Source: Lentisphaeria bacterium (GTDB lineage Bacteria; Verrucomicrobiota; Lentisphaeria; Victivallales; Victivallaceae). Taken from it: DNA of 40,846 bases. Made by a program: the position numbers and the translations under genes. The stretch spans positions 1-40,846 of the forward strand of contig JAFVZG010000081.1 in the NCBI GenBank assembly GCA_017508285.1. The letters are read 5' to 3'. The notes below the pieces were generated by a model, which saw only the letters and a program-made list of their open reading frames with translations, searched no databases and was not told the DNA's origin. Numbering within the stretch: position 1 is the stretch's first letter; the number at the start of each line of letters is the position of its first letter. Below, piece by piece: positions 30 to 583 of this stretch.

Positions 30-110
30 CATGATTTTCCAAGCCGCTTGAAAAGCGGCTTTTTTTTGTGCCTTGAAAAGGCACAAAACTGCGAAGCAGG
101 GAAAATCATG
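30..110. repeat. Multibranched hairpin cluster with GAA triloops
   Basis: An outer stem, CATGATTTTCC (30-40) with GGAAAATCATG (100-110), is a perfect 11-base complement. It encloses three perfect hairpins laid nearly end to end. AAGCCGCTT/AAGCGGCTT is at 41-61, TTTTGTGCCTT/AAGGCACAAAA at 64-88, and CTGC/GCAG at 89-99. All three have the loop GAA on the plus strand (TTC on the minus strand). A fourth hairpin with loop AAA follows at 121-135. The first hairpin plus T-run (41-67) could act as a rightward terminator. The whole clover-like design suggests a dispersed structured repeat or a small structured RNA. No family is recognised. Confidence 0.6.
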
Positions 111-320
111 CCACGGCGTAATCTGCAAAGCAGATGAAGTCGGACAGCTGTGATTTGCGGACAAGGGACGCATGACCATTGCGTAAAATTTTACATAAAC
201 ACACAATCGAGTGACTTTTTTGTTGCCTTTTTTCGCCTCATCGACGGTTTGTGATATAAGTTCATAATGATTTCTCGCTTGAAATTTCCGGCAGTTGATA
301 GATTTTTGATTCGGCGTTTT

Positions 321-413
321 ATGGACTTGATGGAGAGGATGGACAAAATGGACTTTCCGGCATTATTGTGTAAAGCAGTCCATTGTGTCCATTTAGTCCA
401 TGTCGTCCGTTGA
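321..413. repeat. Inverted pair of 9-nt tandem repeats
   Basis: The left arm (321-356) is four 9-base units, each beginning ATGGA (for example ATGGACTTG and ATGGACAAA). The right arm (376-413) is about four 9-base units containing the complementary GTCCAT. Reverse-complementing the right arm and aligning it to the left matches about 25 of 34 positions, with a perfect terminal block AATGGACT/AGTCCATT next to the ~22-base loop. Both arms can therefore fold into one long imperfect hairpin. Because the unit length is a multiple of three, it creates spurious repetitive open frames on both strands. No gene or terminator role is evident. Confidence 0.6.
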
Positions 414-544
414 AAACTCTTTTTACGCACTTGACAACAGGTGAATTCCACTCTTTTTCAATTCCGTATTTCAAATTTTTATGTTTTTCGCCTGTTTCTG
501 TCACAAACCGTTGATGAACTTAAAAAAGTATCTCCCGGAATATT

Positions 545-574
545 TTTGACTTTTGCTATTGTATATTTATACAA
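545..574 (+). promoter_or_regulatory. Candidate promoter with overlapping dyad
   Basis: TTGACT (546-551) stands 16 bases before TATACA (568-573). The perfect dyad TTGTATA-TT-TATACAA (559-574) overlaps the putative -10. It would drive transcription rightwards, antisense to the 3' end of the ABC transporter gene. No plus-strand gene follows, so this is either an antisense promoter, a relic, or chance. The direct repeat TTGTCAC occurs at 581-587 and 600-606. Confidence 0.25.
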
Positions 575-583
575 ACGGAGTTG

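Follow-up and report, generated by a model that had tools for sequence, protein, structure and literature searches.

Close to the start of the window, by which we mean the whole stretch of 40,846 nucleotides analysed here, lies a branched palindromic fold. It is probably a copy, itself non-autonomous, of a compact mobile element that has specialised in the 3′ ends of genes for tRNA and tmRNA. A broader reading, put forward here only tentatively, is a new class of elements in which a SLX1-like, structure-selective GIY-YIG nuclease would recognise a branched fold (the cloverleaf of the tRNA gene and/or the element's own clover) and install a unit of 300-500 bp precisely behind the CCA of nearly any tRNA or tmRNA gene, where the CA of the host would complete a stem; such units would occur in several phyla and replace earlier occupants. 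The window corresponds to contig G000:C44 in full, which belongs to a genome bin of 1.87 Mb and 71% completeness, and the closest relatives of this genome are Lentisphaeria MAGs, many of them from herbivore guts.

The clover (30-110, + strand) is closed by an outer stem of 11 bp (30-40/100-110) which begins with CA, ends with TG and encloses three hairpins. Hairpin 1 (41-61) has a stem of 9 bp and a GAA loop, and after a TT at 62-63 it is followed by hairpin 2 (64-88; 11 bp with the core GTGCCTT GAA AAGGCAC) and hairpin 3 (89-99; 4 bp, CTGC GAA GCAG). The initial annotation had placed the outer stem at exactly these coordinates, with three hairpins of the same stem lengths inside, and had considered such a cluster unlikely by chance, which our calculations bear out. 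The RNA fold of positions 1-160 has -63.0 kcal/mol, compared to -39.7 +/- 4.0 kcal/mol for 200 dinucleotide shuffles, none of which is equally stable (z -5.8). Folding as DNA results in a z of -6.2, and perfect stems of at least 8 bp with a loop of 3-6 nt are found at just two other places in the 40.8-kb window. The repeated GAA triloop, which had been regarded as a telling feature, turned out to be incidental, as the loops of hairpins 1 and 3 in close relatives are TTC, AAA, CGCA, TCC or TCT while the stems are kept. Hairpin 1 is GC-rich and, together with the T-run behind it (41-67, + strand; AAGCCGCTTGAAAAGCGGCTT TTTTTT), resembles an intrinsic terminator, as it does in Lentisphaeria copies directly behind tRNA genes. 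This terminator-like hairpin accounts for a part of the element only.

A fourth hairpin with an AAA loop, described earlier, is indeed present (121-126/130-135), but it is merely the core of a longer hairpin (111-144, + strand), here called P, with the sequence CGGC-GTA-ATCTGC-AAA-GCAGAT-GAA-GTCG. In the window P consists of the stem CGGC/GTCG, a 3x3 internal loop GTA/GAA, the inner stem ATCTGC/GCAGAT and the loop AAA, and it stands directly behind the closing stem, just as P in the relatives stands directly 3′ of the closing TG. The unit is therefore larger than the formerly proposed 30-135, since its start is the CCA at 29-31, while its second hairpin reaches position 144. By blastn the stretch 109-146 recurs elsewhere in the genus. 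Across phyla the stems of P vary (CCCTCC/GGAGGG, CCGCC/GGCGG, CGGC/GCCG, CCGCT/AGCGG, CGTC/GACG, TCCGCC/GGCGGA), while the purine-rich internal loop R-N-A/G-N-M is constant and mostly reads GTA/GAA, ATA/GAC or GAA/GAA. Its outer mismatch is either G.A (24) or A.C (19); the inner one, A.G, is found unchanged in 45 out of 50 distinct hairpins. Because the stems change and the internal loop is kept, P is under selection for a fold, either as RNA or as single-stranded DNA.

Using blastn against 60 relatives, near full-length copies were found in three other genomes of the genus (G012, G013 and G021; 86-87% identity), together with many partial ones. The possibilities that the clover might be single-copy, might lack conserved stems in relatives or might belong to a coding sequence, which the initial annotation had raised against itself, can thus be set aside: besides the copies, the stems persist in relatives despite sequence change, and the clover is not coding. 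The search of relatives with a structural model, suggested at the same time, gave matches down to an E of 2e-24. Model R1 recovers a narrow subfamily only, clearly in 4 genomes and with weak matches in 2 more. Within this subfamily of only 5 sequences two compensated pairs were counted, a number reached in 81 of 500 shuffles. Because this covariation is too weak to decide, subfamilies were compared with one another instead, with both ends as anchors.

The CA of the CCA junction (29-31, + strand) is the base of the outer stem, and the same junction is found at annotated tRNA and tmRNA ends in relatives. Within the genus, copies start precisely at the CCA terminus of tRNA-Ala and tRNA-Val genes; for G013 and G021 the starting point is the final A of the tRNA-Ala gene (..GCTCCACCA|TGATTTTCC). 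Structures of the same plan and different sequence follow further tRNA genes of the genus, among them Val-GAC and Ala-GGC in the genome of the window itself, the latter cut by a contig end. The outer stem always runs from the CA of CCA to TG (CATGATTTTCC, CATCCTTCGC, CAGTCTTC, CAGGCTTCAC, CAGACTTCC), and the closing stem of the window, 30-40/100-110, likewise starts at the CA. A full-length element has about 300-500 bp, lies directly after the CCA on the strand of the tRNA or tmRNA gene, and shows the order CCA end of the RNA gene, palindrome or clover closing on CA, hairpin P and one GIY-YIG gene. Lentisphaeria copies carry a terminator-like T-run after the first inner hairpin; the inspected copies outside Lentisphaeria are without it.

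Further palindromes were observed at tRNA ends. At eight loci (L042, L047, L049, L053, L058, L061, L040 and, in the own genome, L065) a T-run hairpin stands behind the tRNA CCA, with arrays of perfect hairpins after it. These arrays, found behind Val, Pro, Phe, His, Ser and Asn tRNAs with the spacers GCTTCA/ACTTCA, represent a second, different palindrome system. A third family with a larger fold and GCAAAAAGCAAGCAAC..GTTGCTTTTTCTTTTTGC arms is located behind tRNA-Pro, tRNA-Asp and tRNA-Glu (L053, L059, L067, L070). In L271, L289, L114 and L144 the complementarity runs beyond the CA into the 3′ strand of the RNA gene itself, as if the end of the RNA gene had been copied inversely (for example CTCCGCCA / TGGCGGAG at the tRNA-Ser of L289).

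Downstream of the copies in G012, G013 and G021 an ORF of 79 aa is found, and other types have ORFs of 82-87 aa. All 34 of 34 linked ORFs are GIY-YIG proteins (PF01541). In these 34 proteins from relatives the residues Y17, R27, H31 and E63 are invariant, so that the catalytic residues expected of a homing nuclease are in place. The protein of about 80 residues is a solitary catalytic domain without a DNA-binding domain. Its AlphaFold model reaches a pLDDT of 96, and Foldseek finds At-HIGLE and Slx1 as the nearest folds, both of which are nucleases of branched DNA; on the sequence level UPF0213 and SLX1 are nearest. The nuclease is the sole gene of the unit at many unrelated loci, and across these the homology stops at its stop codon. 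Carriers comprise 16 of 34 genomes of the genus, 28 of 240 Alphaproteobacteria and 81 of 240 genomes from the phylum of the window (Verrucomicrobiota). Because the nuclease profile was seeded from Lentisphaeria, remoter types are undercounted. Among plasmids only three matches were obtained, each under 42% identity, and among phages none. On an Azospirillum lipoferum plasmid (L317) a remoter GIY-YIG gene lies between sufB and sufC, therefore the wider family also occupies non-tRNA sites.

For the association with RNA genes, the first scan used the nuclease profile, which is blind to tRNAs, and one genome per species. At 61 of the resulting 80 loci a CCA-ended gene for tRNA-Ala (44), tRNA-Val (5) or tmRNA (12) lies 20-800 nt upstream on the same strand, and an opposite-strand tRNA was found within the flanks of 1 locus out of 80. 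In ten cases Rfam confirmed the tmRNA, with E values of 1e-53 to 1e-72. We then took the 9-mer starting from the CA of CCA and looked for its reverse complement, with one mismatch at most, between RNA gene and nuclease gene. Such an anchored stem exists in 57 of 58 non-redundant cases, compared to 3.3% in dinucleotide shuffles. Pairing in the 16 distinct arm pairs amounts to 96.4%, while re-dealt arms reach 72%, with 87.5% as the highest value of 2000 trials. Another sample, for the most part independent of the first, consisted of the nuclease carriers among the 240 Alphaproteobacteria and 240 Verrucomicrobiota genomes. Here 42 of 52 loci lie behind a same-strand tRNA or tmRNA gene, versus 2 on the opposite strand, and 36 of the 42 have the anchored stem. 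The targets include tRNAs for 13 amino acids plus tmRNA and have only the CCA in common. In five of the ten remaining loci the contig extends no more than 210 nt upstream. A large part of the genomes are draft MAGs, the contigs of which break in these repeats. In total, the nuclease was found at tRNA or tmRNA ends in Verrucomicrobiota, Alphaproteobacteria and Acidobacteria. In the window and the loci, Rfam at gathering score detects only tRNA and tmRNA, and nothing on the element.

Unlike its sister copies L008 and L009, the copy in the window is not preceded by a tRNA or tmRNA gene but by the last 31 nt (1-31, + strand) of a dispersed repeat of about 190 nt, repeat X, inside which the contig starts. 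Positions 1-32 match G022 and G008 with 100% identity and, with shorter exact matches, also G033, G013 and G021 (blastn). Repeat X was found at seven further loci (L022, L023, L025, L027, L028, L029, L035) and ends ACCTCCACC(A); different clover elements or hairpin arrays sit behind it, as behind tRNAs. Seven copies of X were aligned. Neither ARAGORN nor Rfam finds a tRNA or tmRNA in it, and an assignment of X as tRNA, tmRNA or Rfam RNA was rejected. In the window it ends TACCTCCACCA, the last 10 nt of which equal the 3′ end of the Lentisphaeria tmRNA, and the tmRNA genes in L110, L114 and L118 end with ..ACCTCCACCA, as does X. X is possibly an RNA belonging to none of the identified families with a tRNA-like end, or a decoy.

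Most of the non-tRNA copies in the genus share ACCTCCACCA, the 3′ end of the Lentisphaeria tmRNA. At these copies it may be a tmRNA tail, 8-10 nt carried along from an earlier host gene, or the sites may imitate the target; copies of X without an element keep CCTCCAC, which favours imitation. That elements always take such a stretch of 8-10 nt with them was given up as a general rule, since CCA is all that is common to the copies behind Val, Pro, Ser, Gln and Gly tRNAs.

The region that carries the GIY-YIG gene in full-length relatives corresponds to 145-583 (+ strand), where tblastn detects nothing credible; a GIY-YIG relative was also not found in the available 71% of the own genome. The sister copies L007, L008 and L009 have the gene downstream, and we therefore call the window copy non-autonomous. 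It has either lost the nuclease gene or never had one. Being located behind a non-tRNA repeat and without nuclease, it is a member of the class by structure only. It combines the TGATTTTCC clover with a CGGC-type P, whereas nuclease-bearing copies of the same clover have the CCCTCC type; judged from this mismatched pairing it may be a chimera. At 238-517 the window also contains a MITE-like element. Its terminal inverted repeats of 17 bp match at 16 of 17 positions (TCATCGACGGTTTGTGA / TCACAAACCGTTGATGA), and its end parts (about 228-311 and 428-520) recur many times in the genus with 80-94% identity.

Evidence for mobility comes from the orthologous tRNA-Ala-GGC locus of Rhizobium, which, depending on the species, is empty, filled with type A including a nuclease, or filled with type B, which is unrelated to A and brings a nuclease of its own. 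In empty sites the CCA is followed by AATCT.. or similar, with 125-186 nt to the next shared block. The 3′ end of the nuclease gene of A survives downstream of B (L241 compared to L236), therefore B displaced A. In several Rhizobium genomes pieces of this locus are 20-40 kb apart, presumably because it has been split by islands. The Lentisphaeria loci L094, L098 and L074 contain tandem arrays of truncated units with a period of about 200 bp. At their joints the nuclease gene, near codon 30, is connected to the inside of hairpin 1 via a short GTCTTGC-like shared string, which may be a preferred break point.

We infer homing by a SLX1-like nuclease, including the step from nuclease to movement. 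In its mode of action the unit would resemble a homing element that has a REP-like folded leader. The GIY-YIG nuclease would cut or nick the end of the RNA gene, and repair would copy the element in by gene conversion similar to homing, without damage to the tRNA. The folded leader could serve the nuclease as a branched substrate or could, as RNA, insulate the tRNA transcript, and in Lentisphaeria hairpin 1 with its T-run might act as the terminator of the tRNA. The copy in the window lacks the nuclease, and the repeat in front of it is decoy-like, its end resembling that of tmRNA.

It could be argued that a REP/MITE-like palindrome is moved by an enzyme encoded elsewhere, for example a tRNA-specific site-specific integrase, with the GIY-YIG gene as a passenger. 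The existence of nuclease-less copies, the window included, would fit, and the separated pieces of the Rhizobium locus are what integrase-made islands would give. However, there is no gene besides the nuclease, the stop codon of which marks the end of the unit at many unrelated loci, and the same unit occurs behind many kinds of tRNA with only CCA in common. Island integrases leave a repeat of the tRNA 3′ end, tens of bp long, at the far end, and beyond the stop codons of the junctions inspected no further repeat of a CCA end was noticed. We regard this reading as unlikely. That the palindromes met by chance at a contig end, as the position within 146 nt of the contig start might suggest, has a negligible probability: the copies in other genomes refute it, and neither the z of -5.8 nor the architecture conserved across phyla agrees with it.

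Rather improbable, too, is that the structure is a 3′-trailer of the host's tRNA genes, used for termination or processing, and that the GIY-YIG protein takes part in RNA processing. Hairpin 1 and the T-run directly behind tRNAs do look like a terminator, and as RNA the sense strand has a slight advantage in folding (38 of 49 sequences, which are not independent; median 1.5 kcal/mol), but the G-U counts do not differ between the strands and so favour neither. A trailer of the host would also hardly explain the patchy distribution of the GIY-YIG gene given above, orthologous loci that are empty, filled or differently filled, or the existence of non-tRNA copies and decayed tandem arrays.

The initial proposal of a structured RNA or a dispersed REP/MITE-like element of no recognised family is supported, since the data show a conserved structure in an element of this kind. 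A solitary RNA gene or an ordinary REP would not describe the unit, however, and none of the tested families (Rfam, REP/RAYT) fits. Its defining points lay beyond what the initial annotation could see, namely the anchoring at a CCA end of tRNA or tmRNA type, hairpin P, the linked GIY-YIG gene and the occurrence in several phyla. With REP/RAYT (TnpA-REP) it shares short palindromes, an associated nuclease and dispersed nuclease-less copies; it differs in being fixed at RNA-gene 3′ ends, in its larger branched fold, and in its linked enzyme, which is GIY-YIG in all cases and not a Y1/HUH transposase. Like MITEs it is small, non-coding and dispersed with terminal inverted repeats, but its inverted repeat is completed by the host CA, the stem covaries between copies, and there is no link to a DDE transposase. 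At the inspected junctions no target duplication was recognised. GIY-YIG homing endonuclease genes (I-TevI, the free-standing Seg/Mob) are likewise selfish nuclease-centred units with empty and filled alleles and replacement at one site. Unlike them, the element has neither intron nor DNA-binding domain but a catalytic domain of about 79 aa alone, many tRNA and tmRNA targets and a folded leader closing on the host CCA, and none was found in phages. Integrative elements at tRNA and tmRNA ends (islands, tyrosine integrases) use the same targets and leave the RNA gene intact, whereas the unit of 300-500 bp has no integrase gene, its targets share CCA only, and no far-end repeat was noticed at the inspected junctions. 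The SLX1/HIGLE/UPF0213 nucleases, its best relatives in sequence and fold, are housekeeping enzymes, structure-selective repair nucleases or uncharacterised. A survey of GIY-YIG proteins from 2006 mentions prokaryotic Slx1-like proteins, but no association with tRNA ends and no linked palindrome (PMC1564403). As Rfam, NCBIfam and open-access full texts yielded no description, the element apparently belongs to no described family, being very small, selfish and undescribed.

Islands and phages classically land in genes for tRNA and tmRNA by means of integrases. If our interpretation is true, a different and much smaller class occupies the same sites with nucleotide precision and without a recognisable transposase or integrase. 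It would be present in about a third of the sampled Verrucomicrobiota genomes and would therefore matter for tRNA expression, and also for genome assembly, as contigs often end in or near such elements. Furthermore, it would bear on the annotation of many "GIY-YIG nuclease family proteins" and would give solitary GIY-YIG proteins a testable role.
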